From a virus: a stretch of 64,000 nucleotides of DNA. This document shows positions 3,001-54,648 of the stretch, piece after piece. The DNA lies in IMG/VR virus record IMGVR_UViG_3300037322_000275, positions 29,082 through 93,081 of that record, one strand, 5' to 3'. Within the stretch, counting starts at the first letter, position 1; every line of letters begins with the position of its first letter. A program made the translations under genes and the position numbers. The notes beneath the pieces are model-generated. The model saw nothing but the letters and a program-made list of their open reading frames with translations. It searched no databases and was not told where the DNA came from.

Positions 3001-5632
3001 TTTTAATTCTAAACTTTCTGTAATATTAAAAACTACAATAAATAACATCAGATATTTACCTGAAATTGAAGACGATTGGAGAAAAAAGTTAGCTGTTGAA
3101 TACGCTAAACAAGGTATTACAGGTATCAGTAAGACAGAATGGGTTGCTCAACAAATGAATAATGCATACAAAGACGAAATACAAGAAGATCTAGATAACT
3201 ATGTAGATAACTTGTTAACAGGTGTTGGTACAGACATTTCTGCTGCCTCTGCTTTAATTTTAGATGGTATTAATAATAATTCCAGACTTGTTAGTATTGT
3301 AATGAATTTTATCACTCAAGCCAGAAATAAAATTATTGAACAAACTACTGAAGGAGATATTAAAGAAAACAAACTGTTTACTGCATTAACTAATGAAAAA
3401 GGAAAAAATGCTTCTACTAAAAAACTTTATGGAAACATTTATGACCAGGATTCTGCAGGTAACACAACTCTTAAAGGTGAATATTCAATCAAGTTTAAAG
3501 AAAAGTTTGATCTCTTAAGAAATAAAGTAAGTAGTACTTTAGAAGAACGTGGTAGATCGTCTAAAGAATTTAAAGCCGTATTAGTTGAATATCGTAAATG
3601 GTTAAAAGAAAATACAGTTTACAAAAATAAAAAAAGAACACCTGTTGCTAAATGGAAAAATGACCTGTCTAAATTAACTAAAGTTGAAAAAGAAATTTTG
3701 GATTACTTTATTGAAACAACTAAATTAGTTGATGAACAAACCTATGGCATACAGTCTTTAATTGTAGATGTTAAAGGTGCAACATTTTATACATTACCCG
3801 CAGTAACTAAAAGTGATTTAGAAAGAGTTGTAGACGGTAACGCAAAAGGTTTAATTAAAGATAAGTTAAAAGACATTGGTTCAATTAGACCTGACGATAT
3901 TGGTTACGATAAAAAGAATTTAAACAGTAAAGGTGAAATTGTTAGATATCAAAGAGTTCATTACAGAGGTAAATTATCTTCAGATCAACAGTCTTTAGAT
4001 TTATTTACAGTTAATCGTTTAAACCGAGTTAATGGTCTAAATTACAAAGAAAAAAATGCAATTGTATTACAAGTTGAAGCAATTAAGTTAATTGCTAAAA
4101 ACAAAGAATACTTTCTTAAAAATCCAGGTGGTAAAAACATACACAATATGTATTCTACTAGAGAAAAGGAAGGAACTCAACGAGGTAATAAATCTAACGA
4201 GTTTAAAATGATCGACAATATGATTGAAAAAAATATATACGACATTTTACACATTACTTATGGTAATGTAGGACCTATAGATTTAAATAAGGCAATTAGT
4301 ATCACTAACGGTTGGGTTGCATCAGTAGGTCTGTCTTTAAATGCTTTTTCTGCAGGGGCTAACATTTTAAATGGACAAGCTCAGATATTTTTAGAAAGAA
4401 TTGCAGGTAACCATTTAACTAAAGGTTCTGTTACTAAAGCACATAAAATGTATACTTCTGATTTAGGTGGTATAATGAAGGATTTTGGTAATCCAATTAA
4501 AACTTCGTTTGTTAATCAAGTAAATCAAATGTTTGATACTTTTGGTGGGTTTAGTGTAAAGCAACAAGAATTTATCAAAAACACAATTGCTAAAACTGTA
4601 ATTAATTCAGAAACACTGCAATTTATGCATGAAGGTGGTGAACACTATCTTCAATCAATAATGGTTATGGCAACACTAGAATCAATTAAGGTAATGGATT
4701 CTAACAATAACTACATTGGCAAAGACGGTAATGTGACAACTAAAGATAAAGCTGCTTCTGTTTTAGATATGTTATCTAAAGATAGTACAGGTTTATTGAA
4801 ATTAAGTGATAAAGTTGTTTATTCAGACAGAAATTTAAATTCTAAAATAAATGAAGGTGGTAAAGAGCAATTATTACTCTTTGTAAAAAAGAAACTCTTT
4901 GATACGATGGGTAATTATGATTCTAATTTACAACCCGAACTTTACAGACACTGGTATGGTAAGTTAGTAATGTTGTTTAGACGTTATTTAATACCACAGT
5001 TGGTAACTAGATTTAGAGGTGTTTCTACAGCTTTTGTTTCTGAAGAAAATTTAGAAGATGGAGATATTCATTTTAATGACGCATTAAGAACAACTGAAGA
5101 AGGTTCATACGTTAGTGCTTTAAGATTTTTAAGACATGGTATATATCCTGCATTAAGAAAGTTAAAATTTGACTTACTCAGTACTAATTGGAATGAACTA
5201 GATGATGACAAAAAAGCAGGAATAAAGAAAACAGTTGTTGAACTAGCATTGACTTCTGCACTTTTACCATTAATAGGTTTATTAGCTGCAGGTGCAGCAG
5301 GTGATGACGACGACAAAGAATGGTTATTTACAATTGCATTTTTAGCAAGAAGATTAGAATCTGAATTATCACAATTTAGAGATCCTAGAGAAGCAACAAA
5401 AATTACTAAATCACCAATTCCTTCGTTGAGAGTAATAGAACAAACTTTAGATATACTGGATTATTTATTACCTTGGAATATTACGGAAGTAAATGATACT
5501 TATCAATCTGGTAAAAATAAAGGTGAACTCAAAATCAAAGTTAAAGCTATCAAATTAATACCTATAATAAGTAAACTAGAAATAACTTCTGAAGAACTTT
5601 ATAAAGGTCTTGAATCAAAGTACGGAAAATAA
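1..5632 (+). CDS. Giant virion polyprotein with zinc-metallopeptidase motif (5' end outside window)
   Basis: The frame is open to the left edge of the window, so the first methionine at base 20 is probably internal and at least 1,870 residues are visible. Residues 715-719 (counted from base 20) read HELAH, the HExxH zinc-protease signature. Long lysine/glutamate-rich helical stretches follow. Near the C-terminus a hydrophobic segment (LALTSALLPLIGLLAAGAAG) precedes an acidic DDDD run. Giant multi-domain proteins of this type occur in crAss-like phages and are thought to be carried in the virion and ejected with the DNA. The peptidase could process itself or host proteins, but that is inference. 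The gene converges on the minus-strand block at the 5.65 kb hairpin. I saw no RNA-polymerase DxDGD motif in the visible part. Confidence 0.85.
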   Translation, partial: HPEILRMAEELNVSPAVLGAKVGVWQEKNNVEDRFPTSEEVLAYNEVNMSLKAVDILLSDKAKQVFDKGKKSNWDLNKTLTELQIPKDQKQLILDSGKTTIDNIVTDLLANYSYTVEINTAKYYNRNNENNSSFSVEEDIGMEGQSFGWTIVSNGELGNVSGLTDNSFKTKEEAEAYLKSTKKESLLNTKHYSNLTVPGGTNYTENEIATPAITPSIKGHARFATDNGIGWFRSDDKARIEEVRIGKAFDKGYLTEEEKEEYFAEGNSQRDLNEMLKTHKGIETSKAQTGITKTRRILEVQSDLFQKGRDKKSIVKPKYNNIGVREDEINHNNKTYILLPQGYFEDSDDNLVISSKLNDTNSSDIQLVRAKENNYLTIDDNLYEILESKSLQVKDRNNAENEIKPQNQFLQLLNKDNNWVNFFIKSIIQNSAKKGYEKVLFPSGDTAAKIEGHETVQGFIDTKEARIRILKESPSIYYRFLDKDGFTETQYLNIKYAEEYKKNHNKNWKVIDLTKENNIKIAQLEKEIEDAKAGKLKISSVAKFYEETVFNVLKKQGYNPVRITDEYGNSWYKVNIESKRDNSMIFMNRAKLKTLEGSKENKLDWTDSTEQLTTVKEEFVDYSKENAYVLFANKQGKITADEVLDNILNNFSDFSEIGLEFIQKAKNLISKSGVKIQFVNESVFSDKDVIMDFDASSNTIRISRTRLSEFDTQTVVSTFLHELAHSQTAEALLNPVTFEQQEFKLLIDKMFLKYKTQSNNSGSYGFKNTMEFVAELYSNPEFRKEVEALDKSFWNKFIDAVRRLFGFKKNNEYTKLINEITEKVESDQSEFKGIRNQVIFEKRTTSRNKAQTIEDKLQKTLNKAKDNLDNLLNQSKAYKRKNEEKGKAFEKHIQELIDEIEKVSLIDQWKGVSIYVKSMLNTINQLNDRLDKEDFTKENGLELIDSFRTYMSTYDLVEDVKDLVTSLTNEKIDEVGLEEISQLKAILKDTVGGHAILESRFNSKLSVILKTTINNIRYLPEIEDDWRKKLAVEYAKQGITGISKTEWVAQQMNNAYKDEIQEDLDNYVDNLLTGVGTDISAASALILDGINNNSRLVSIVMNFITQARNKIIEQTTEGDIKENKLFTALTNEKGKNASTKKLYGNIYDQDSAGNTTLKGEYSIKFKEKFDLLRNKVSSTLEERGRSSKEFKAVLVEYRKWLKENTVYKNKKRTPVAKWKNDLSKLTKVEKEILDYFIETTKLVDEQTYGIQSLIVDVKGATFYTLPAVTKSDLERVVDGNAKGLIKDKLKDIGSIRPDDIGYDKKNLNSKGEIVRYQRVHYRGKLSSDQQSLDLFTVNRLNRVNGLNYKEKNAIVLQVEAIKLIAKNKEYFLKNPGGKNIHNMYSTREKEGTQRGNKSNEFKMIDNMIEKNIYDILHITYGNVGPIDLNKAISITNGWVASVGLSLNAFSAGANILNGQAQIFLERIAGNHLTKGSVTKAHKMYTSDLGGIMKDFGNPIKTSFVNQVNQMFDTFGGFSVKQQEFIKNTIAKTVINSETLQFMHEGGEHYLQSIMVMATLESIKVMDSNNNYIGKDGNVTTKDKAASVLDMLSKDSTGLLKLSDKVVYSDRNLNSKINEGGKEQLLLFVKKKLFDTMGNYDSNLQPELYRHWYGKLVMLFRRYLIPQLVTRFRGVSTAFVSEENLEDGDIHFNDALRTTEEGSYVSALRFLRHGIYPALRKLKFDLLSTNWNELDDDKKAGIKKTVVELALTSALLPLIGLLAAGAAGDDDDKEWLFTIAFLARRLESELSQFRDPREATKITKSPIPSLRVIEQTLDILDYLLPWNITEVNDTYQSGKNKGELKIKVKAIKLIPIISKLEITSEELYKGLESKYGK

Positions 5633-5691: not shown

Positions 5692-6777
5692 TTACATAGG
5701 TGCTAGCATCTCAGCTTTAATTGCTGGATATGATTCATAATCTTTTAATTTAAACATATCTATTCTCAATTCTTTAAAATATTCATCTAGAGTTAAAATT
5801 TTCATATTTACAGCATTTGTTGCTATGTCAAATTCAGGATGAAATTCTAATTTACATTTATTATGTTTATTGACATCTTTATTAAGTTGTTCTTTAATAG
5901 CTTCTATATGTGAATCATAAATATGAACATTAGATAAATCACCAATTAATTCACTAGGAACCATATTAGTTAATTTACCAATTACATTAGCTAATAAACC
6001 GTATGATGCAATGTTAAATGGTAACCCAAGAAATGTATCAACACTACGCTGATGCCATTTTAAATCAAATGTATACTTAATATCGGTATCTGCTTCTTTT
6101 CCCCAATTTCCTGAGTTGTGAATTCCACTTTTAGAAGAGTTATTAATTTGATATCTTTTTATGTAGTTTAAAGGTCTAGGAATAATCTCAAAAGCCCAAT
6201 GACAAGGCGGTAAAGCCATTTCATCTAATTCAGCAGGATTCCAAGCTGTAACTATATGTCTACGAGACATTGGTTTATCTTTAAGATTCTGAATTAAACT
6301 AGATATTTGGTCTAACTTAATAGGTAACCATGTTATATTGTTATATAGTATTGGTGCTGACCAACTTTTCCATTGAGCACCATATACGCTGCCTAAATTA
6401 CCAAATTTTATTTTGTCTAAATGTTTAACATTATTGTTTTTAATATATTCTATAAATTCTTCTATATTATATACAGGATTATCAGAAGTTTTTAAATACC
6501 AATTATAAGCATCTTTATCCCAAATATGAATATTATTATCTACAAGATATTTAATATTAGTATTACCTTTTAAAAACCAAATTAATTCACCTACAATTCC
6601 TTTCCAGTACAATTTTTTAGTAGTAATAGCTGGAAACCCGTCAGTTTGTAAATTATGCCTAAATTCGTAAGAACTTACTTGTTTGCACATTACATTTCTA
6701 CTTTCGTCTTTATAATCATAACCCTCCTCAAGAATTTTCTCAAGGAGTGTATGATATGTGTAGTCTATTCTAGCCAT
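5692..6777 (-). CDS. thyA: Thymidylate synthase
   Basis: The enzyme converts dUMP to dTMP with methylene-tetrahydrofolate. The active-site motif LPPCH is present (Cys192), followed by RSVDTFLGLPFNIASY, the dUMP-binding signature including the conserved Asn. The N-terminal GELIWFLKGNTNIKYL and the IWD motif also match ThyA. At 361 residues it is longer than the roughly 264 of E. coli ThyA, with extra sequence between the N-terminal domain and the catalytic Cys. This is common in phage forms. Its start overlaps the end of the upstream gene by 8 bases, so the two are co-transcribed. It is the last gene of the leftward block. Confidence 0.95.
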   Translation of the reverse strand: MARIDYTYHTLLEKILEEGYDYKDESRNVMCKQVSSYEFRHNLQTDGFPAITTKKLYWKGIVGELIWFLKGNTNIKYLVDNNIHIWDKDAYNWYLKTSDNPVYNIEEFIEYIKNNNVKHLDKIKFGNLGSVYGAQWKSWSAPILYNNITWLPIKLDQISSLIQNLKDKPMSRRHIVTAWNPAELDEMALPPCHWAFEIIPRPLNYIKRYQINNSSKSGIHNSGNWGKEADTDIKYTFDLKWHQRSVDTFLGLPFNIASYGLLANVIGKLTNMVPSELIGDLSNVHIYDSHIEAIKEQLNKDVNKHNKCKLEFHPEFDIATNAVNMKILTLDEYFKELRIDMFKLKDYESYPAIKAEMLAPM

Positions 6778-7162
6778 TATCTTTATCTACTTCTAAAAAT
6801 TTATTGCCTGACCAATATTCTTGATGTTTTTCTTCTTCACTATAAACTTCAATTTTATCAATAATACTAGCCATTTTTAATATTAAATAAATAACATTAT
6901 CTCCAAACTTTTCATTTAATACTGCTATTGTAGGTAATTTATTTTCAACCAAATCATTAGTTATATCGGCAATAGATATTTCATGTTTTAATAGAAAACC
7001 ATCTAATACTTTTTCTCTAATTAATCCACTACGTTGTGAACCAATATCAAAATTATGAAAAGGATTATTGTTTCTACGGTATTCTTTACCTTTTACAACT
7101 AAAGTTTCTCTAATCCCATTTAAAAAGATATCAATTACTTCTTCAAATCTGTTTTCTGTCAT
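6770..7162 (-). CDS. Conserved phage protein of the DUF1599-like nucleotide-metabolism type
   Basis: A 130-residue helical protein. The segment KGKEYRRNNNPFHNFD resembles the KxxEYxxxxDRLHNF signature of small phage proteins often found beside nucleotide enzymes (nucleotide modification-associated/DUF1599-like). The following residues are helical and acidic. The position directly upstream of thyA, with an 8-base overlap, supports a role in the dNTP pool. The assignment rests on one motif, so the precise activity is unknown. Confidence 0.7.
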   Translation of the reverse strand: MTENRFEEVIDIFLNGIRETLVVKGKEYRRNNNPFHNFDIGSQRSGLIREKVLDGFLLKHEISIADITNDLVENKLPTIAVLNEKFGDNVIYLILKMASIIDKIEVYSEEEKHQEYWSGNKFLEVDKDNG

Positions 7163-7308
7163 TTTATTGTTTTTAAAATATCACACTTTCTGTAAGTAGT
7201 TATGTCAAATGTAACCCCAGATTGTGAATTATTACATCTTGTTTTATGAATTAACTTTCCATTTCTGTAAATGTAAGACTCGTTATCTATTATTTTAGAC
7301 CACATCAT
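7159..7308 (-). CDS. Small unknown protein (49 aa)
   Basis: The frame reads MMWSKIIDNESYIYRNGKLI and ends in TGA, overlapping the next ATG as ATGA. Its start overlaps the end of the metallophosphoesterase gene by about 14 bases; a second ATG lies at 7305. Tight coupling on both sides is the main evidence that it is real. Two cysteines (TRCNN, RKCD) are present. No family was recognised. Confidence 0.65.
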   Translation of the reverse strand: MMWSKIIDNESYIYRNGKLIHKTRCNNSQSGVTFDITTYRKCDILKTIK

Positions 7309-7987
7309 AATCAATAATATTACCATTACTAGTTAACTGATTAAGTTTACCGTGTGTAATGACAGAACCATTGCTATATAAGATGTTGTGTTCTGCTAAT
7401 TTCAAAATTCCTGCATTTACAATATCTTCACTACTGTGAATGTGTCCAAATAAACACATTTTTGGTTGAACTCTTATTACATTGTTTTTTAGGGCTCTGT
7501 CACCATTTTGATCTAACCTGTGTGTTTTATCATAAGAAAGATCTAATATTCCTTTAGGTGGTCCGTGAACAACTAATATGTCTGTTTCAACAGGTATTTG
7601 TTTCCAGATATTATCCATCTTAAATCTACTTTTTTGAAAGTGCCAGTCACCATAACTTGGTGTATATGGAGAACCATAAAAGTTGATACCCTCAATCTGA
7701 AGAAATTCATCTTGAAGATATATAATGTTTTCTGTTTGACAAATTGTTCTAAAATCTTCTGTATATCTTGAAACATATGTATCATGATTTCCTGCTACTA
7801 ATATTTTTGTTGGAATTGGTAAGCCTGAATACCATCTTATAAAAGAAGCGGTTTCAGTTTCATTTCTATACAGATCTTTATAGTTAGTAAAATCACCTGA
7901 ATGAATGACAATGTCTATGTTTTCAGGAATAACCAACAGATCGTGATATCCATGTGTATCACTAATGTGCCATATTTTCTTAATCAT
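7295..7987 (-). CDS. Calcineurin-like metallophosphoesterase
   Basis: The five blocks of the dinuclear-metal phosphoesterase fold are in order: DTH (D10, H12), HSGDF, AGNHD, LVVHGPP and FGHIH. At 230 residues it is a single catalytic domain. Such phage enzymes hydrolyse phosphomonoesters or diesters of nucleotides or nucleic acids; the substrate cannot be told here. The start ATG overlaps the TAA of the MazG-like gene upstream by one base, in an operon of nucleotide-metabolism genes. Confidence 0.9.
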   Translation of the reverse strand: MIKKIWHISDTHGYHDLLVIPENIDIVIHSGDFTNYKDLYRNETETASFIRWYSGLPIPTKILVAGNHDTYVSRYTEDFRTICQTENIIYLQDEFLQIEGINFYGSPYTPSYGDWHFQKSRFKMDNIWKQIPVETDILVVHGPPKGILDLSYDKTHRLDQNGDRALKNNVIRVQPKMCLFGHIHSSEDIVNAGILKLAEHNILYSNGSVITHGKLNQLTSNGNIIDYDVV

Positions 7988-32352: not shown

Positions 32353-32643
32353 TTATTTTTCTTCAGTTATAATAATACTACTTGGCGTAAGATTTCTAAT
32401 ACCATTTGTAGTGTTGTACACCTGTATTGTATTATTGGTTTTTTCAATAATTTTTGAAGGTGTAAGTTCTTTGATACCATTTGTTGTATTGTATACATTT
32501 GTGGTATTGCCGTTTGTTTGTATTACTTGTGACGGTGTTAAACTTCTAATACCGTTTTCTGTTTTATAAACTTCTGTTGTTTTTTGCTGAGCATTCACGT
32601 TACAAAACGTAAATAATACAATCAGCAATAATATTTCTTTCAT
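32353..32643 (-). CDS. Secreted repeat protein (signal peptide plus three 25-aa repeats)
   Basis: About 96 residues from the ATG at 32643, two bases from the upstream stop. MKEILLLIVLFTFCNVNA-QQ is a clear Sec signal peptide with a cleavable ANA-like site. The mature part is three tandem 25-residue repeats, each with VY(K/N)T(E/T)NGI(R/K)xLTPSxII. The repeats occupy 32356-32580. A phage protein exported to the periplasm or surface is unusual and may alter the envelope. The DNA repeats have diverged, so this is not recent slippage. Confidence 0.8.
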   Translation of the reverse strand: MKEILLLIVLFTFCNVNAQQKTTEVYKTENGIRSLTPSQVIQTNGNTTNVYNTTNGIKELTPSKIIEKTNNTIQVYNTTNGIRNLTPSSIIITEEK

Positions 32644-33649: not shown

Positions 33650-35668
33650 TTAAAATAATTTTAATTGATTAAAGTTATTTATCTCATCAATTATTCTCTG
33701 TGTTTTACTAATGTAGTAAGAATAATTAACGTTGTATTCATTAAAAGGTTTCTCTTCATAGTTGTTAAACAATATGACACCTTCACCTACATTTACATGC
33801 ATCATTGTAGCATCTCCATAAATTAAAAGATCGATACTTTTTATTAATTGATCTTCACTTAAAGGTTTCCAATTAGGGTAATCTTCTCTATTGTGTTTAG
33901 AAATTAATTCATTTGTTAATCTATCTCGATCTGTTTCAGAATAAACTTTTGATTTCTTTTGTTTAAACAAATATAGACCTTTTTTACTAAAATAATATCT
34001 ATTCAATTGTTGTTGAACTTTTCCACTATGAAATACAGCAAAATCTTTACCTATTTTATTAGATTTACAATAATCATAGATATGTAGTTTGTATTTTTCA
34101 GGATTACTAATAAACTCACCTGGTGAAATATTATTAATATAATAGTTGTGTAAAGCTTTTGATATTACTAACTCGTCTGTTGAATCACCTAAAGGAATTT
34201 CTTTCTGACCTTTTTCATTAAAATCTAATTTAAAGAAACCTTTACGTTTGACATCACCAGATTTAGTTTTACATATATAGTTATTTACATTTTTATATAT
34301 GATTTTATCGTAATGTTCATGTTCTAGATCTAATTGAAATTTATTACAAACCATATTAAGAATATCTTTATACTGTTGAATCTGATGTTTTGGAACAATC
34401 ACTTCAATACCGTCAGTATTTGCTGAAACAACTTGCCAGTTATTAATTAAACATGATTCAATACATTTAGTAAGAATTAATTGACCAATTAGTCTCATTC
34501 GCATTGCACCTTCAGGAAAGTATAACCAACCATGTTCCATATCCAGTAAACCTGATGTTGAATTAAGAATTAACTTAAAGAATGTGTCTTTTTGTTTTTC
34601 TTTTGCTTTTTTAGCAATAATTCTTTCATCTTTTACTTGAATATATTTGTTTAGAACTTCAGGAAATCTAATACATTTATAATTTATTATTAAATTAGGA
34701 TATAAAGAAGCTACATCAGAAGTTAAAACATCATAATCATCATTACCTTGATATTGTTCATTTTCATTTATAGAATGTAAACCACCAACACCATAGGTTA
34801 ATCGTATAGAAGTGTTATTGTAATTAACTAACAGTTCTCTACTGAATTTATCTTTTGACTTTAATATGTCATTCCACAATTCTTTAAATATAGGAAGTTT
34901 AAATTCAGGATCAAAACCTTTTAACACATCGTTAAGATACATGTCACCTTTCTCAAATCTTTGATTTCTTACATAAAAAGGTTTTTTATGTGTAATTCTA
35001 CAATAATCTAAAAGTAATGCTTCAGAAGCAATCTTAGTAGCATCCATAGACCAACAGTCAATACCATACTCTTTAACAATGTTTGCACGAAGTTTGATGT
35101 CATCCTGCATTTTAATAGTAAGTAATTCAAGAATACCTAAATCATGTGTGTAATTATAATAACGTAACTTTGGTAACTGATCTATTGTTAAGACAGAGTC
35201 GTGTCTATAAGGTAATTCTTGAACAACAGGATAACCTAGTTGAATACCTAAAGACTTTAAACTGATTTTTTTGGATATTCTTAACATCTTAGACCAATAC
35301 GCAAATAAATCAATATCAATCCACTTTGTCTTTAAATATTTAACTTTTTTAATTTCGTCATCTTGATAATTTTCACCATAAATTATTTTATCTGAAAAAT
35401 ATTTCAAACTTGAAGTTACATTTGCCCAATTTAAATCTTGATACTTGCTGTAATTTAACAACAAATATTTAATAACTTGATTGTCGTAATGTATACCATT
35501 AAAACTAATTAAAAAACCTTCATAATCTAAAAACCAATTGTAAATTTCTTTTAATTCATTTCTTTCTTCACTAATTTCGTAAAAAACAATTTCTTTTGTG
35601 TCAAGGTTTTTAATTCCAACACAAAAGAAGTTGTGAAAACATTCGATATCATATAATTCTTTTTTCAT
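33650..35668 (-). CDS. Family B DNA polymerase
   Basis: 672 residues with proofreading and polymerase domains. Exo I is DIE (residues 7-9), Exo II FNGIHYDNQ, Exo III YNYTHDLG. Polymerase motif A is SDVASLYPNLI, motif B KLILNSTSG, and motif C SANTDGIEV, where the usual DTD is NTD. A short PolB (about 670 aa) of this type occurs in one branch of crAss-like phages, others having PolA. It is the replicative polymerase. Confidence 0.93.
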   Translation of the reverse strand: MKKELYDIECFHNFFCVGIKNLDTKEIVFYEISEERNELKEIYNWFLDYEGFLISFNGIHYDNQVIKYLLLNYSKYQDLNWANVTSSLKYFSDKIIYGENYQDDEIKKVKYLKTKWIDIDLFAYWSKMLRISKKISLKSLGIQLGYPVVQELPYRHDSVLTIDQLPKLRYYNYTHDLGILELLTIKMQDDIKLRANIVKEYGIDCWSMDATKIASEALLLDYCRITHKKPFYVRNQRFEKGDMYLNDVLKGFDPEFKLPIFKELWNDILKSKDKFSRELLVNYNNTSIRLTYGVGGLHSINENEQYQGNDDYDVLTSDVASLYPNLIINYKCIRFPEVLNKYIQVKDERIIAKKAKEKQKDTFFKLILNSTSGLLDMEHGWLYFPEGAMRMRLIGQLILTKCIESCLINNWQVVSANTDGIEVIVPKHQIQQYKDILNMVCNKFQLDLEHEHYDKIIYKNVNNYICKTKSGDVKRKGFFKLDFNEKGQKEIPLGDSTDELVISKALHNYYINNISPGEFISNPEKYKLHIYDYCKSNKIGKDFAVFHSGKVQQQLNRYYFSKKGLYLFKQKKSKVYSETDRDRLTNELISKHNREDYPNWKPLSEDQLIKSIDLLIYGDATMMHVNVGEGVILFNNYEEKPFNEYNVNYSYYISKTQRIIDEINNFNQLKLF

Positions 35669-39279: not shown

Positions 39280-39321
39280 AATTTTAATGTTTAAGTTAGT
39301 TAATTTTAAGTTTTTATTTTG

Positions 39322-39819
39322 TTATAACATGTATTGTATTTTAAATCCTGCATTTTGTCGGTATCCTGGATCACCTCCTGTAAATTTAAAGTCTTCTCTG
39401 TAATCATTAGATAATCTAATACCTATGTTAAATTTTGTTGATGGTATATTCCATAGTATATTTAGTTCTTGACCAAACAAGGGATAAATAATATCTGCTC
39501 GTTTAATAAATCCACCACGTATTCCTATTGTATATCTCATTTGTTTAAAATAACCACTAGTAAAGCTTAAACCTACACCACCTGCTAAATCTATATAACC
39601 ACCTTCTAATGCTGGAAGTATTTGTGAAGCAACTTTTACATAACCAAAGTTTTCTTCATATTCAAATTCAAATATTAAATTTGGTGATCTCTTTTCCAAT
39701 GTTGGTTTAGGTTCAACTGTAACAGAAACGTTAGTTCCTGAAGTTTCACTAAATCTAAATCCTTGTGCATATACTGATATATTAATCAATAACAATGCAA
39801 TTAATAATTTTGTTTTCAT
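39322..39819 (-). CDS. Secreted outer-membrane beta-barrel-like protein
   Basis: 165 residues. MKTKLLIALLLINISVYAQG is a clear Sec signal peptide with an AQ cleavage site typical of Bacteroidota. The rest alternates aromatic/hydrophobic strands with glycine turns and ends GFKIQYML, like the C-terminal strand of outer-membrane barrels. A phage-encoded barrel could block receptors (superinfection exclusion) or change permeability; that is inference. Confidence 0.75.
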   Translation of the reverse strand: MKTKLLIALLLINISVYAQGFRFSETSGTNVSVTVEPKPTLEKRSPNLIFEFEYEENFGYVKVASQILPALEGGYIDLAGGVGLSFTSGYFKQMRYTIGIRGGFIKRADIIYPLFGQELNILWNIPSTKFNIGIRLSNDYREDFKFTGGDPGYRQNAGFKIQYML

Positions 39820-39876
39820 TTTTGTTTATTTTTGATTAATTTTGTTTTGGATGTAGTAAAAGATAATTAAAAAAAT

Positions 39877-39972
39877 AAACACATTATAAGATTTACTCAA
39901 GATATAATTGATTGGCTATATCTCTTTCAAAGATGTATTGAATTGTTTAAAATTCAAACTCATAATGTGTTT
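39877..39972 (-). ncRNA. Candidate structured RNA / three-way junction in spacer
   Basis: The outer stem pairs 39877-39890 (AAACACATTATAAG) with 39959-39972 (13 of 14). Inside are hairpins AGATATA/TATATCT (39900-39906 with 39917-39923) and TTGAATT/AATTCAA (39938-39944 with 39951-39957). It lies about 58 bases upstream of the barrel-like gene's ATG on the minus strand, so it could be a leader structure, terminator or small RNA. AT-rich sequence makes chance pairing easier; the strand is inferred. Confidence 0.4.
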
Positions 39973-39990
39973 TTAAAATATTGTATATAT

Positions 39991-40212: not shown

Positions 40213-40416
40213 TTAATTTCTTTTTCTCGAACCTACTATAATACAGTAGATAAGATTAATGTTTGCAAGTACTCCAATTAATGGAAAACTCGGCAATTCT
40301 TTAGGACCAAAGTTAAGTCCTAGTACAAATGTAAACACCACTATTACTAGTGATATAATGAACCATGTTTCCCAGACAGTTTGTTTGCTGTCTGAGTAAG
40401 TTTTAGTTGCTTCCAT
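40213..40416 (-). CDS. Two-pass membrane protein (67 aa)
   Basis: MEATKTYSDSKQTVWETW leads into two helices (FIISLVIVVFTFVLGL and LIGVLANINLIYCIIVG) and a basic end (SRKRN). Three bases from the next membrane-protein gene. Function unknown. Confidence 0.7.
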   Translation of the reverse strand: MEATKTYSDSKQTVWETWFIISLVIVVFTFVLGLNFGPKELPSFPLIGVLANINLIYCIIVGSRKRN

Positions 40417-40419
40417 AAT

Positions 40420-40617
40420 TTATTCGTCTTTAGATGCTTCGTTAATAATCATTATTGCAAAACAAACACTCGTACATATTCCAAGAAATTGACATATCCA
40501 ATGAAATATTGTGTAAGTTTCAAATTCAAAAGCTGTACCTAAAGTACAAAGCCCTTCAAGTGCTATCAATAGCAATAAACTTAAAGATATTGCAAATACA
40601 TATTTTATTGTTTTCAT
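40420..40617 (-). CDS. Two-pass membrane protein (65 aa)
   Basis: Helices YVFAISLSLLLLIALEGL and WICQFLGICTSVCFAIMII with a short polar loop. The first could be read as a signal sequence but lacks a good cleavage site. Part of the early membrane-protein string. Confidence 0.7.
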   Translation of the reverse strand: MKTIKYVFAISLSLLLLIALEGLCTLGTAFEFETYTIFHWICQFLGICTSVCFAIMIINEASKDE

Positions 40618-40628
40618 AATTTTTTGTT

Positions 40629-40799
40629 TTAGATGTTATTTTTTCCGTAGTTATATATTCTCGATATTAATAAACTGAAAAATAGAGATATAGATATATT
40701 ATATATCCAGTCAATATTATCACTTAGTTTACAATCAATAATTGTATACATACTCATGTAAAAAAGAAACAACCATGCAATTGTTTTAAATTCCTTCAT
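40629..40799 (-). CDS. Small membrane protein (56 aa)
   Basis: Begins MKEFKTIAWLFLFYMSMYTI and has a second hydrophobic run (WIYNISISLFFSLLISRIY). Two membrane helices are likely. The ATG is preceded by the 20-base leader shared with the 94-residue gene upstream. Confidence 0.65.
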   Translation of the reverse strand: MKEFKTIAWLFLFYMSMYTIIDCKLSDNIDWIYNISISLFFSLLISRIYNYGKNNI

Positions 40800-43188: not shown

Positions 43189-43731
43189 ATGGTGTATTTT
43201 ATATCAGATGGTATCTATACTAAAATAGGTAAAAGTAAAACTCCTTTAACTAGGATTAAAGATTTACAAACAAGTAATGCAAATAAATTATTCTTTACAC
43301 ATTTATTTGATGTTCAAGATAAATATGAAAAAACATTACATAAATTATTTAAAAATTTTAAAACAGAATCAAATAATGAATGGTTTAATTTAAAAGACGT
43401 TAATATTGAACATATATTAAAAGGAAATTTATTTAGCATTCCTCAATTTTTAGATATTAAATTAGCAACTTTTAAAGCTTCTCAATTTAATACAAAAGAA
43501 CTAAAAGTTTTTAAACAAAATCAAAAAGTTTTAAGTTTAGAAACTTATGAAAAAAGTAAAGTTAAAAAAATAATAGAAGATGTTAAAGATTGTTTAAAAA
43601 ATAAAAAAAAAACAAGAATATCTTACTATAAATATATTGTTGATTATGGGTTTACAAAAGAACAAATTTCTTTTTTTATAAAATCAGCTCAATTAAACAA
43701 ATTAGTTGCAAAACATAATAATAATATTTAA
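43189..43731 (+). CDS. T5orf172/MUG113-type GIY-YIG-like nuclease
   Basis: 180 residues. VYFISDGIYTKIGKS, then RIKDLQTSNANKLFF and HKLFKNFKTESNNEWFNL, matches the T5orf172 (MUG113) domain, a GIY-YIG relative common in phages. The C-terminal third is basic and helical, probably DNA-binding. It is followed by a strong terminator. Possibly a homing-type or anti-host nuclease. Confidence 0.8.
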   Translation: MVYFISDGIYTKIGKSKTPLTRIKDLQTSNANKLFFTHLFDVQDKYEKTLHKLFKNFKTESNNEWFNLKDVNIEHILKGNLFSIPQFLDIKLATFKASQFNTKELKVFKQNQKVLSLETYEKSKVKKIIEDVKDCLKNKKKTRISYYKYIVDYGFTKEQISFFIKSAQLNKLVAKHNNNI

Positions 43732-48402: not shown

Positions 48403-49911
48403 ATGGAAGAAATATATTTTAATAAAGAAGGTAGAGATAAACTAATAGAAGGTGTTAATAAACTCAATCGAGCAGTGTCTTCTACTATGGGTCCAAATGG
48501 CAAAAATGTCATTATACCTGATAGAAAAACAGGAGAATATAGAGTTACTAAAGATGGGGTATCTGTAGCTAGAGAAATTTTTTTTAAAGATTCATTAGAA
48601 AACATTGGTGCACAATTAGCTAAACAAGCAGCTGAAAAAACTGTAGAAGATGCAGGTGATGGAACAACTACAGCTACTGTATTAACTACTGCTTTTGTTA
48701 ATAACCTTTGTTCTTTTGAATTTAAGGATATCAATACAGCTTTTAATGAAATAATACCTAAAGTTATAGAACAACTAAAACTAAACTCAAGAAAGCTAGA
48801 ACACAAAGATATTACACACGTAGCAAGTATTTCAGCCAATAATGATTTACAAATTGGAGAATTTATACAGAATGCTTTTAATCATTCAGATATTGTAAAG
48901 ATAGAAGAGAGTTCTAATACAGAAGATGTATTAGATACACTACCTGGAATATTACTTCCTGTGAGTTACTTTTCTAAACATTTTATTAACAACCCTTCTA
49001 AAGGAAGTTGTGAACTTACAAATGTCAATACATTAATTATAGATGGAAAGTTAGAGAAATTAGAAAACTTTAGATCAATACTAGAACTGACACAACAACC
49101 CAATAATTCACTATTAATTATTGTAGAAGATATACACGAACAAGCATTGAGAAAACTTGAAACTTTTGTTTTATCTCAACAATTACCAATATGTGTTATT
49201 AAATCACCAGGTTTTTCTAGACATCGTAAAGATTTACTAGAAGACCTTTCAATCTTTACAGGTAGTACATTGATTACAGATTTAACCAAAAGCTATAACA
49301 CAAACATTCTTGGTAAACTACAATCTTGTAAGATATCTAAAAACAGTAGTATCTTAGTTAAAAAAGAAGATATTGATGTATCTGAAAAATTAAATGTTTT
49401 AAAAACATTATTTAAAGATAAAGACCTTACTAGTTATGATAAAGATTTAATTAAACAAAGAATTGAATATTTAAAAGGTAAAGTGTCAATTATTAAAGTT
49501 GGTGGTAAAACAGAAACTGAAATGAAAGAAAGATATGACCGTTACGATGATGCAGTTAAAGCAGTAGCTTGTGCATTAGAGGAAGGTATTGTAGAAGGTG
49601 GTGGTATTGCTTTATTTAAAGTTCAATCTAAATGGTTAAACAATGAAAACAAAACAAATACGTCAAATTCAAATGAAGACATAAATAAATGTGTTTACAG
49701 ATGTTTACTTGAACCTGCTATTAAAATCTTAGAAAACAAAGTCAATACTACATATTCACTTACTTTTGATTTAGGAATAAGTATGTTTAAAGAAAATATC
49801 ATAGACCCACTTAAAGTTACAAGATGTGCATTATTGAATGCAGTAGCTGTAGCTAAAACAATCTTAAGCACAGAAGCAATTGTGTTAAACCAAAACGAAT
49901 GGATGAAATAG
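48403..49911 (+). CDS. groL: GroEL-like chaperonin
   Basis: 502 residues from the ATG 48403. STMGPNGKNVII and AGDGTTTATVL are the ATP-binding loops, the equatorial Asp is present in DRYDDAVKA (E. coli D398 equivalent), and VEGGGIALFKV is conserved. It is about 45 residues shorter than E. coli GroEL, mainly in the apical domain and the absent C-terminal GGM tail. The ATPase looks intact. It probably folds the phage capsid protein; it overlaps the terminase gene. Confidence 0.92.
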   Translation: MEEIYFNKEGRDKLIEGVNKLNRAVSSTMGPNGKNVIIPDRKTGEYRVTKDGVSVAREIFFKDSLENIGAQLAKQAAEKTVEDAGDGTTTATVLTTAFVNNLCSFEFKDINTAFNEIIPKVIEQLKLNSRKLEHKDITHVASISANNDLQIGEFIQNAFNHSDIVKIEESSNTEDVLDTLPGILLPVSYFSKHFINNPSKGSCELTNVNTLIIDGKLEKLENFRSILELTQQPNNSLLIIVEDIHEQALRKLETFVLSQQLPICVIKSPGFSRHRKDLLEDLSIFTGSTLITDLTKSYNTNILGKLQSCKISKNSSILVKKEDIDVSEKLNVLKTLFKDKDLTSYDKDLIKQRIEYLKGKVSIIKVGGKTETEMKERYDRYDDAVKAVACALEEGIVEGGGIALFKVQSKWLNNENKTNTSNSNEDINKCVYRCLLEPAIKILENKVNTTYSLTFDLGISMFKENIIDPLKVTRCALLNAVAVAKTILSTEAIVLNQNEWMK

Positions 49912-52163
49912 AAAACTTATATAAAATGAATTCTTATCAGACACCTTTAACTGAGGAGCTGAAAAAGAATCTACATCGAGAAGTTTGGTCTGAATTAGTA
50001 GACATGATTAATTCTATTACTTTTGTTAAAAATTTAATAGCTGTTGAAAATGTTCGAAGTTATGCCAAAGATCAAGTTAAATCTGTAGATTATAATGATG
50101 GTAGGATTGAAGTTAATTTAACAAATCCTCACATACTTAATGATATGGATTTTTTTAGAGAAAGAGCTCTTTTCTTTGAGAAACATAAAAAATACACACA
50201 CCTTACACCTAATCCAAATCCTAAATCAGATTATGGTTTATTTTGGAAAGAAGAACTTCGTAAATGGAAATATGGTTTAGTTAGACCTAGTGATGGCGAA
50301 TGGATTCCTGGAGAATTATATTTCTATTGGAACTATTCACCAATATGGTTAGTAGAAGAAGCAGGTACACAATCTGATGGAGCAAAATCTCAAGGAGAAC
50401 GTTTATACAAATTTGCAAAACCTTGGTTAGGTGACTATTTGTTTCACCATTATGTAGAACAAGCTAAACGTAGAGGTAAACATGGTAAAATGCTTAAATG
50501 TAGAGGTGTTGGTGCAAGTTTTAAAGCTGCATCGTGGAGTCCTCGTAATATGTATATATATCCAGGATCAGGTAATCCTAACTTTCACCTAGCATCAGAT
50601 AAAGGTTTCTTGTCTGGAGATAAAGGAATCTGGGGTAAAATTGTAGATTGTTTAGATTGGATTGCTGAAAACACACCTCTTCCTAGAATGAGAACTGTAG
50701 ATAGAGCAGGTAGTACATTAGAAATACAATTAGGATTTAAGGATGAATATGGTACTCGTTTAGGTTTATTATCTTCAGTACATGGTATATCATTGAAAGA
50801 TAATCCCGATAAAGCAAGGGGTATTCGTGGACCACTAATACATTATGAAGAAGACGGTCTTTTCAACAACTTAGAAAAAGCATGGAATGTAAATAGAAAA
50901 GCTGTTGAAGATGGTAATACAACATTTGGTTTTATGATTGCCATGGGAACAGGTGGTGTTGAAGGTGGTTCATTTGAAGGTTCAGAAAAATTGTTTTACA
51001 GTCCTGGAGCATATAATGTATATGGTATACCTAATGTTTTTGACAAAAATGCAAATGGTGAACAGTTATGTGGTTTCTTTTGGGGAGCATATATGAATCG
51101 TAAGAATTGCTATGATGAAAAAGTTGGTGAACCTGACATTATTAAAGCACTGATAGAAATTCTAAACGATAGACATCTTGTTAAATATAGTTCAATAGAT
51201 CCTTCTACAATTACTCAAAAGAAAGCAGAAGAATGTGTTACACCTCAAGATGCAGTTATGCGTACAGAAGGAACAGTGTTTCCTGTATCAGATTTAAAAG
51301 ATTATCTTGAAACAATAATGGTTAGAAAAGAATCTTTTTTAGCAGAACATTTTGTTAGTGAACTTGTAAGAACTGGTGAAGGTAAAGTAGAATGGAGATT
51401 AGCTAAAGATAGATTTCCATTACGTAGTTACGATAAAGATGAAGCAAACAGACAAGGTTGTTTAGAAATTTTTGAAATGCCTAAAACAAATGCAAACGGT
51501 GAAATTCCTTATGGTAGATATATATTTGGAATTGACCCTATTGATGCAGATACAGGACCTTCTTTATTTAGTATTATTGGTCTAGACACCTTTACAGACA
51601 GAATTATTTGTGAATATACAGGTAGACCAAAGTTAGCAGAAGAAGCGTATGAGATTGCATTAAGAACAATTGAGTTTTATAATGGTCAAGCAAACTATGA
51701 AAAAAACTTAAAAGGTCTATTTAGTTATTTTGACAAAAAAAACGCATTACACCGACTATGTGATACACCACAAATATTAAAAGACATGCAATTAGCAAAA
51801 GGTGGTGGTTATGGTAATAATTCAAAAGGTACTACCGCAAATAAAGAAGTAAACAAATGGGGTAGAAAATTACATGCTGATTGGATGAACACTCCTGTTT
51901 TAGGTGATGACACTGGAAAACTACGTTTGCACACAATACGAGGTCTTGCACATATTGACGAATGTATTAGGTGGAATTCAGATGGTAACTTTGATAGAGT
52001 GTCTGCCGCGGGAATGTTATTTATATTGAGAGAAGATGTTTATAGAATTACAAAATCTGCTATAGATAATCAAAACACGGCTTCTACAAACTTGAGTAAT
52101 GATACTTTCTTTAACAAGAACTACAACTCTAAAAAAGCTATTAAAAATCAACACATATTGTAA
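49899..52163 (+). CDS. terL: Large terminase subunit (DNA packaging motor)
   Basis: 754 residues. Walker A-like CRGVGASFKAA near residue 200, Walker B IHYEEDG near residue 314, and nuclease acid in FGIDPIDADTG near residue 543, all in family order. The long insertions are typical of crAss-like terminases. It pumps DNA into the prohead and cuts it. Overlaps GroEL by 13 bases and is followed by a promoter. Confidence 0.93.
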   Translation: MDEIENLYKMNSYQTPLTEELKKNLHREVWSELVDMINSITFVKNLIAVENVRSYAKDQVKSVDYNDGRIEVNLTNPHILNDMDFFRERALFFEKHKKYTHLTPNPNPKSDYGLFWKEELRKWKYGLVRPSDGEWIPGELYFYWNYSPIWLVEEAGTQSDGAKSQGERLYKFAKPWLGDYLFHHYVEQAKRRGKHGKMLKCRGVGASFKAASWSPRNMYIYPGSGNPNFHLASDKGFLSGDKGIWGKIVDCLDWIAENTPLPRMRTVDRAGSTLEIQLGFKDEYGTRLGLLSSVHGISLKDNPDKARGIRGPLIHYEEDGLFNNLEKAWNVNRKAVEDGNTTFGFMIAMGTGGVEGGSFEGSEKLFYSPGAYNVYGIPNVFDKNANGEQLCGFFWGAYMNRKNCYDEKVGEPDIIKALIEILNDRHLVKYSSIDPSTITQKKAEECVTPQDAVMRTEGTVFPVSDLKDYLETIMVRKESFLAEHFVSELVRTGEGKVEWRLAKDRFPLRSYDKDEANRQGCLEIFEMPKTNANGEIPYGRYIFGIDPIDADTGPSLFSIIGLDTFTDRIICEYTGRPKLAEEAYEIALRTIEFYNGQANYEKNLKGLFSYFDKKNALHRLCDTPQILKDMQLAKGGGYGNNSKGTTANKEVNKWGRKLHADWMNTPVLGDDTGKLRLHTIRGLAHIDECIRWNSDGNFDRVSAAGMLFILREDVYRITKSAIDNQNTASTNLSNDTFFNKNYNSKKAIKNQHIL

Positions 52164-52233: not shown

Positions 52234-54648
52234 ATGAACACGAAAATAAACACAATACCATTACCTCGTCAAAGACTTCCCTATTCTCAAAAAAATAAAG
52301 AATGGCGAAAAGATAATGTTGATTATTCTGATACACATTCGTATTACCATAATGAAGGAGTTCGTAAAGACTTAAAAAATAAAATCATAAATTTAAACCT
52401 ATATAACGGTATCTTAGATCAAGAAGATTTGTTAAAAGTAACAAACCCAAATCATTTAGATGCTTCATATGTTTATGATGAAATACCACACAATCCTATA
52501 ATTGTTCCTAAAATTGATTTATTAGTTGGTGAAGAAATTAAAAGAAGATTTGATTACTCAGTAATTGTAACTAATTCTGATGCAATTTCTTCAAAAGAAG
52601 AAGACAAAAAAAGAATACTCTTTGAAAAATTAACTTCAATAATTCAATCAAATTCAGATGAAGAACAAATAAAGTTAAAGATGTCAGAACTTGACAAGTA
52701 CATGAAATACACTTGGCAAGATCTTCGAGAGAAAATGGCTAATCAAATTTTAAAACATTATTATCAAGAACTTAATTTTGCAGAAAAATTTAATAAAGGA
52801 TTTAAAGATGCTTTAATTATGGCTGAAGAGATATATCTTTTAGATATAGATCACGGAGAACCTACAATGGAAAAACTAAATCCATTAAAAGTTAGAGCTG
52901 TAAGAAATGGTAATTCAGACAAAATTGAAGACTCTTCTTTAATTATTATTGAAGATCACAAGTCACCAAACTACCTTATAGATAAATACTATGATGAGTT
53001 AAAACCTGAAGAAATTGATTATCTTACAGAATACACAACAAGTGGAAAAAGTAATTATTCAGATGACCATAATAATCACACATTACTAAGAGATGGTCAA
53101 GAAGGACTCTTTGCTAGAAAAGATACATACAATACTTTATTTGGTATTGCAGAACTAAATGGTCATACTTTTAATTCAAACTATACAGACGATCAAGGTA
53201 ACATAAGAGAATTTATTGTTAGATGGAAATCATTACGTAAAGTTAAGAAAATTCAGTACTATGATGAATATGGTGAAACACAGTTTAGATTTGAATCTGA
53301 AGAATACAAAACAAACAAGACCTTAGGTGAAGAAGAAACTGCTTTTTGGATTAATGAATCCTGGGAAGGAGTTAAGTTAGGTAAAGATATTTATCTTAAA
53401 ATGAGACCTAGACAAGTTCAATACGTAAAAGCAAACAATCCTTCAAAAGGACATTTGGGAATAATTGGTCAAATATATAACACAAACCAAGGAAAAGCTG
53501 TATCTCTGGTAGATAGAACTAAAAATTTCCAGTACATGTATGATGCAATGTTTGACAGATTAAACAAAGCAATTGCTACAAATTATGGTAAAATATTAAA
53601 ACTAGATTTAGCAATGGTTCCTGCAAACTGGGAAATTGAAAAATGGATGCATTTTGCTGTAGTAAATAAGATTGCAGTAGTAGATTCATTTAAAGAAGGA
53701 CAACACGGAGCAGCAACAGGTAAATTATCTGGAAATCTTCAGAATCAAGGAGGTTCTGTAATGGACATGGAAACAGGTGCATATATACAACAACATATTC
53801 AGTTACTTGAGTTCATTAAAATAGAACTTGGTGAAATTGCAGGAGTTTCAAGACAACGTGAAGGTCAAGTTGCAAATAGAGAAACCGTTGGTGGTGTAGA
53901 ACGTTCTGTAAATCAAAGTTCACACATTACTGAATATTGGTTTATGTTACATGAATCATGTAAGATAAGAGTGTTAGAAGCTTTTCTTGAAACAGCTAAA
54001 GTTGCATTAAGAGATACTGAAAACAAAAAAGTTCAATATATATTAGATGATCAAACAATTGAGATTCTTAATATGGAAGGTGAAACGTTTTCAGAATCTG
54101 ATTATGGAATTCTTGTTACAAACACACCTAAAACAATGGAACTTGAAAATGCAATAAAACAATATGCACAAGCATTTATGCAGAATGGTGGATCAATGTC
54201 AACTATTATGGATATTTACTTTAGTCCTTCACTGATGGATATGCGACGTAAATTAGAAAATGCTGAAGAAGAAATTTCTAAAAGAAATGCGCAACAAGGT
54301 GAAGCACAAAACAAAATTGCAAAAGAAACACTTGATTATACAAAAGAACTAGAAAAGCAAAAACTAGAATTAGAAGATACCAAAAATCAGAGAGATAATG
54401 ATACTCGAAGATATGTTGCAGATATGAATGACAATTTTAGAAATTCAGGATCTCAAGATAATAACGATGATGGTGTAAATGATTATTTAGATATAAATAA
54501 ATTTAATTTAGATGTTGAAACAAAAAAGAATGAATATCTAGTTAAAATTAAAGCACTAGACAACGACATGAAAAAACATAAAGATGAAATGGAATCTAGA
54601 AAAGTAGATCAGTCAATTGCAAAGATCAATAAAAAGAAAACTACGTAA
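52234..54648 (+). CDS. Portal protein
   Basis: 804 residues, the size of crAss-like portals. IPHNPIIVPKIDLLVGEEIK, the long ARAKD-free stem region, and LLEFIKIELGEIAGVSRQRE followed by VGGVERSVNQSS are characteristic of portals of this group. It has a coiled-coil, charged C-terminal third. It forms the dodecameric DNA gate; the scaffold and capsid genes follow. Confidence 0.88.
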   Translation: MNTKINTIPLPRQRLPYSQKNKEWRKDNVDYSDTHSYYHNEGVRKDLKNKIINLNLYNGILDQEDLLKVTNPNHLDASYVYDEIPHNPIIVPKIDLLVGEEIKRRFDYSVIVTNSDAISSKEEDKKRILFEKLTSIIQSNSDEEQIKLKMSELDKYMKYTWQDLREKMANQILKHYYQELNFAEKFNKGFKDALIMAEEIYLLDIDHGEPTMEKLNPLKVRAVRNGNSDKIEDSSLIIIEDHKSPNYLIDKYYDELKPEEIDYLTEYTTSGKSNYSDDHNNHTLLRDGQEGLFARKDTYNTLFGIAELNGHTFNSNYTDDQGNIREFIVRWKSLRKVKKIQYYDEYGETQFRFESEEYKTNKTLGEEETAFWINESWEGVKLGKDIYLKMRPRQVQYVKANNPSKGHLGIIGQIYNTNQGKAVSLVDRTKNFQYMYDAMFDRLNKAIATNYGKILKLDLAMVPANWEIEKWMHFAVVNKIAVVDSFKEGQHGAATGKLSGNLQNQGGSVMDMETGAYIQQHIQLLEFIKIELGEIAGVSRQREGQVANRETVGGVERSVNQSSHITEYWFMLHESCKIRVLEAFLETAKVALRDTENKKVQYILDDQTIEILNMEGETFSESDYGILVTNTPKTMELENAIKQYAQAFMQNGGSMSTIMDIYFSPSLMDMRRKLENAEEEISKRNAQQGEAQNKIAKETLDYTKELEKQKLELEDTKNQRDNDTRRYVADMNDNFRNSGSQDNNDDGVNDYLDINKFNLDVETKKNEYLVKIKALDNDMKKHKDEMESRKVDQSIAKINKKKTT

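Follow-up and report, generated by a model that had tools for sequence, protein, structure and literature searches.

Lom of phage lambda is a phage-encoded small eight-stranded outer-membrane barrel. The protein analysed here shares this predicted architecture with Lom, Ail, and OmpX, the last two being among its fold matches, but it has mostly short loops, its phage has no known temperate lifestyle, and no Ail/Lom/OmpX family profile matched it in Pfam, PHROG, or NCBIfam. A second point of comparison is the N-terminal eight-stranded barrel of OmpA and OprF (1bxw, 4rlc). The interior of the OmpA barrel is a polar network, and our protein is predicted to have this polar interior in common with it, as well as the fold and the size, but has no detectable sequence relation. 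It ends with strand 8, and the C-terminal peptidoglycan domain of OmpA (PF00691) gave no Pfam match in it. A functional precedent is Llp of phage T5, an outer-membrane superinfection exclusion protein (PMC9586334). It is likewise a phage-made outer-membrane protein, and its exclusion role is the analogy we propose, but Llp is a lipoprotein on the periplasmic side that binds FhuA and has no barrel.

Flavobacterial phages have other outer-membrane barrels. A separate, OmpA-type barrel is common to phi14:2 (g002), phi17:2, phi4:1, Molly, and Colly, and in phi14:2 it is located in an early region comparable to that of our gene. We considered g002 as a homologue and rejected it, since the hhalign probability was 1.7 and g002 has the OmpA domain (PF00691). 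A search of phi14:2 for the family of our protein was empty. In phi17:2, the OmpA-type gene adjoins an SPFH/Band 7 gene (L038, 3098-4981), and in the Flavobacteriales contig L011, which carries a homologue of our gene, a coiled-coil lipoprotein that may be SPFH-like lies about 1.3 kb downstream of it; these neighbourhoods are possibly envelope-remodelling clusters. A library of viral structures returned 581 matches at E <= 10, 16 of them at E <= 0.001, and many of the matches were already named outer-membrane barrels. Together with the unrelated OmpA-type proteins of flavobacterial phages, these many predicted matches imply that barrels are not rare in phages, contrary to what the original prediction for this locus had assumed.

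The gene lies on the minus strand at positions 39322..39819 of the window, a stretch of 64,000 nucleotides taken from a virus record of 93 kb, and is predicted to encode an outer-membrane barrel of 165 amino acids. The plus strand has stops throughout this interval, and the coordinates first proposed for the gene are exact for the ORF of the minus strand. An independent viral contig (L001) has a near-identical ORF (98% identity, with three amino-acid and seven nucleotide differences), and the comparison gave a dN of 0.008 and a dS of 0.038, values that are based on only these seven differences. Because a near-identical copy with dN below dS is present in an independent contig, we regard the ORF as real, and the few differences suggest that it is probably under purifying selection. 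Directly downstream of the gene, L001 has an extra ORF of 85 amino acids (6519-6776) that is missing from the window (39280-39321). Upstream, an AT-rich gap (39820..39990, minus strand) may hold a promoter of its own; the Bacteroidetes consensus promoter was not found in this gap, and the pattern occurs at chance level across the window.

The terminase, portal, major head, and GroEL-like genes of the virus record match PHROG families. The portal protein (52234..54648, plus strand) is 57% identical to that of Cellulophaga phage phi14:2, a cultured phage of the Crassvirales (Steigviridae). Judged from this crass-type portal, the terminase, and the major head protein, the genome is that of a Crassvirales phage of Flavobacteria-type bacteria. 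Our gene is part of a leftward, minus-strand run that ends downstream in the DNA polymerase (33650..35668, minus strand; phrog_1252, E 5.5e-105), which marks the early and replication side of the genome. The terminase large subunit (49899..52163, plus strand; phrog_6681, E 1.4e-93), the portal, and the major head gene are on the opposite strand, in a rightward late module. In phi14:2, transcription starts with the corresponding genes for early functions and replication, and it is the virion RNA polymerase that transcribes them (PMC10136315). By synteny with phi14:2 and with the DNA polymerase module, early expression of the barrel gene is probable.

Other genes around this region also attracted our attention. 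A second exported protein (32353-32640, minus strand), which starts with MKEILLLIVLFTFCNVNAQQ and has a Q-rule signal peptide, adjoins the DNA polymerase; it contains two VYxTxNGIxxLTPSxxI repeats and matched no family. Three adjacent genes upstream of the barrel gene (40213-40799, minus strand) encode small predicted membrane proteins, one of which was searched and had no family match. Just past the divergent region, a gene on the plus strand (43189-43731) encodes a protein with a T5orf172/MUG113 domain.

The protein begins with a Sec signal peptide, MKTKLLIALLLINISVYA (residues 1-18), which is followed by Gln19 (39763..39819, minus strand, with the +1 residue included). The predicted cleavage site lies between SVYA and Gln19, and this glutamine is kept in all 14 members of the family alignment. 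Such invariance is what the Bacteroidetes Q-rule predicts, in which a glutamine becomes the N-terminus after cleavage by signal peptidase I (PMC5837995), and it bears out the earlier assignment of the signal peptide to the Bacteroidota type. Q-rule proteins without an assigned function have been reported from Porphyromonas phages, where modification of the outer membrane was inferred too (PMC10367356).

AlphaFold, run on the window protein with an alignment of seven sequences, predicted a signal helix and eight strands (28-36, 47-55, 59-67, 75-87, 94-107, 110-124, 130-141, and 152-164 according to DSSP), with a pLDDT of 82 and a pTM of 0.70. The strands would form a barrel spanning residues 28-164 (39328..39738, minus strand). 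A run centred on the relative in L011 gave the same eight strands (pLDDT 82, pTM 0.73), drawing on the same seven sequences. When compared with solved structures using Foldseek, the model matched mostly eight-stranded transmembrane barrels, the top match being a designed barrel (6x9z, TMt 0.73) and others being OprF (4rlc), PagP, OmpA, OmpX, PagL, NspA, and Ail. The matches were modest (best E about 4e-4) and had sequence identities near 10%. The two faces of the strands alternate in character, as the original prediction of amphipathic strands implied: their mean difference was 1.76 compared with 0.77 in the shuffled mature sequence (p about 5e-5), a result that is not fully independent of the AlphaFold model because the strand limits were taken from it. 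The expected aromatic C-terminus was found in the family but less so in the protein itself. Phe or Trp is the last residue in 11 of the 14 members, whereas the window protein ends in KIQYML, with a terminal leucine and a tyrosine only at position -3.

When inward and outward faces were assigned by residue parity instead of coordinates, 15 charged strand residues pointed inward and one outward. The most conserved strand positions are also mostly inward (R95, R101, R107, E118, R135, D139, R141, E51, and glycines). A narrow barrel of eight strands with 15 charges inside is unlikely to be a pore, and the model suggests that it is probably a plugged, internally salt-bridged barrel and not a porin. 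The check proposed at the outset for the barrel, structure prediction, gave an eight-stranded barrel and not a soluble fold. With two eight-stranded models, the Foldseek matches, a charged interior, and a lipid-facing exterior, the predicted fold of an eight-stranded outer-membrane barrel is strongly supported.

No model of Pfam, PHROG, or NCBIfam matched the protein, nor did a sequence search of the PDB, and literature searches found no description of the family. Direct or profile-linked homologues were identified in four cultured phages: MaF61 of Flavobacterium (ORF35, XYH49338.1; 31% identity), Peternella_1 of Winogradskyella (gp20, QQV91556.1), and two phages of Tenacibaculum, JQ (QIG62289.1) and Gundel_1 (gp51, QQV91485.1). 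In annotated phage records, every homologue is labelled "hypothetical protein". The four resemble our protein in having a signal peptide with the invariant glutamine, a similar length, and a conserved core, but their identity is about 30% and the phages carrying them are otherwise unrelated. In the branch of JQ and Gundel_1, loops L1 and L2 are shorter than in the window protein. Further homologues occur in the viral contigs L007 and L008/L009, in the Flavobacteriales contig L011, and in the prophages L036/L040 (L036 is also virus IMGVR_UViG_2890863339) and L037. In the contig L007, the barrel gene is present as a tandem pair whose signal peptides are identical although the barrels have diverged, and a gene for another exported protein comes after the pair (6001-7768 in all). 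The last gene (7247-7768) was considered as a cargo of type IX secretion, a candidate that we rejected as it had no Pfam support.

The family is represented in five or more lineages, cultured phages or prophages, that are unrelated to one another. They are also found outside recognizable phages: L035 has a homologue among the housekeeping genes of a bacterial chromosome, and the surroundings of the homologue in L034 show no clear prophage, so the basic function of the barrel need not be specific to phages. The first alignment used to scan genomes was too diverse, and a smaller one led to one Flavobacteriales contig. When 400 genomes from the same bacterial family were searched with a profile, about six strong matches emerged; the weaker ones were left unused. 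A scan of viral contigs based on the JQ protein and a search of plasmids revealed no members. Few branches of the family tree were resolved, and we therefore claim no direction of transfer. The family is unnamed and uncatalogued, a new family of an already known sort of protein, the phage outer-membrane barrel. The export signal, the barrel fold, the phage context, and the existence of the family are all strongly supported by the computational evidence.

Which function would such a protein have? The mechanism that we tentatively rank first is a remodelling of the outer membrane early in infection, most likely for superinfection exclusion. The protein would be exported by the Sec pathway of the host, cut by signal peptidase I before Gln19, and inserted in the outer membrane as a closed, eight-stranded, non-pore barrel during early or middle infection. 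There it may bind and mask an outer-membrane receptor, or displace it, and the surface of the infected cell, remodelled in this way, would keep further phages from adsorbing or injecting. Membrane insertion, receptor masking, and exclusion are all putative. Genome position and the wide distribution among phages make a block of re-infection plausible and the leading mechanism. The gene is away from structural and lysis genes, as are most homologues, which are usually near replication, regulatory, and other small early-type genes (MaF61, Peternella_1, Gundel_1, L036/L040, and L037). The precedent of T5 Llp, the parallel of the OmpA-type barrel in the comparable early region of phi14:2, the spread among unrelated phages, the export signal, and the barrel also count for exclusion. 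Against it count the chromosomal homologue L035, the homologue of JQ, which lies between terminase and portal and does not fit an early slot, and the lack of diversifying loops. Variability in loops L1, L2, and L4 is nothing out of the ordinary, and conservation is dominated by inward residues, so the barrel has no visible signature of an arms race.

The best rival is that the protein, like OmpA, maintains the envelope, stabilising or supplementing the outer membrane through a slow infection with no role in exclusion. We hold this to be rather improbable. A filled, non-pore barrel with OmpA and OprF among its fold matches would suit such a role, as would the OmpA-type proteins of phi14:2, phi17:2, phi4:1, Molly, and Colly, that of phi17:2 being beside an SPFH/Band 7 gene. 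The latent period is longer in phi14:2 than in crAss001 (PMC10136315), and the homologue in L035 is an ordinary chromosomal gene. However, the family has no peptidoglycan-binding domain, and one small barrel seems of little help beside the abundant OmpA-like proteins of the host.

As has been suggested for Lom of lambda and related proteins, our protein could be fitness cargo (a moron) that lends the infected cell or the lysogen a new trait at its surface, for instance adhesion or protection against external agents. Several carriers are prophages or Mu-like phages (L036/L040, L037, and Peternella_1), and the fold is common to barrels of the Lom/Ail type, Ail being among the Foldseek matches. 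Yet lysogeny is not to be expected of this crAss-like phage, genes for long-term fitness are of little gain to virulent phages, and the protein matches no Ail/Lom family. This role is less probable than envelope maintenance.

It is very unlikely that the barrel is a lysis factor, with a part in breaking open the outer membrane when the infection ends. Its predicted location and small size would fit, but its gene belongs to the leftward module, away from the endolysin of the virus record (G000:3974-4486; phrog_2649, E 3e-23), which is part of the rightward late module. This M15-type endolysin and nearby genes for membrane-anchored proteins form a separate, late-side cassette, and none of the sampled homologues has an annotated lysis gene as its neighbour. 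The probable lysis cassette spans positions 3316-5494 of L032 (G000:C1:1-15000), where the endolysin (3974-4486) has membrane-anchored neighbours. One of these (4892-5494) is a protein of 200 amino acids with an N-terminal anchor and the end GYLFKL, possibly a spanin (phrog_25644, of unknown function).

Still less probable is an enzyme like PagP or PagL, which would act in the outer membrane on lipid A and hence change the receptors of phages. Both enzymes are among the fold matches, but their catalytic histidine has no counterpart here, as the window protein is free of histidine and the family conserves none. Least likely of all is a soluble or virion-associated beta protein. The outer-membrane location is a predicted one, and Foldseek also matched a soluble barrel, PsbO of photosystem II (TM 0.26-0.51, rmsd mostly above 7), but transmembrane barrels superpose better, the gene is not among structural genes, and the protein has a cleavable Q-rule signal peptide, a hydrophobic exterior, and a charged interior.

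Early remodelling of the surface thus remains our preferred reading. Its boldest extension is a doubtful one: a family dedicated to surface remodelling, exchanged among five or more unrelated lineages of Flavobacteriia phages, including Crassvirales, that excludes competitors via plugged barrels in the outer membrane. Phage outer-membrane barrels were already known as scattered predictions in databases, and what they lack is a function. The analysis adds a barrel family that a single group of bacteria meets in phages unrelated to each other, and it locates one member in what is probably the early module of a crAss-like phage. As MaF61, Peternella_1, Gundel_1, and JQ are cultured, the function of the barrel is directly testable in its carriers. 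If exclusion is true, the family would represent a mechanism based on barrels, distinct from that of the small lipoproteins, and would account in part for the control that these phages have over the surface of their host cells during infection.
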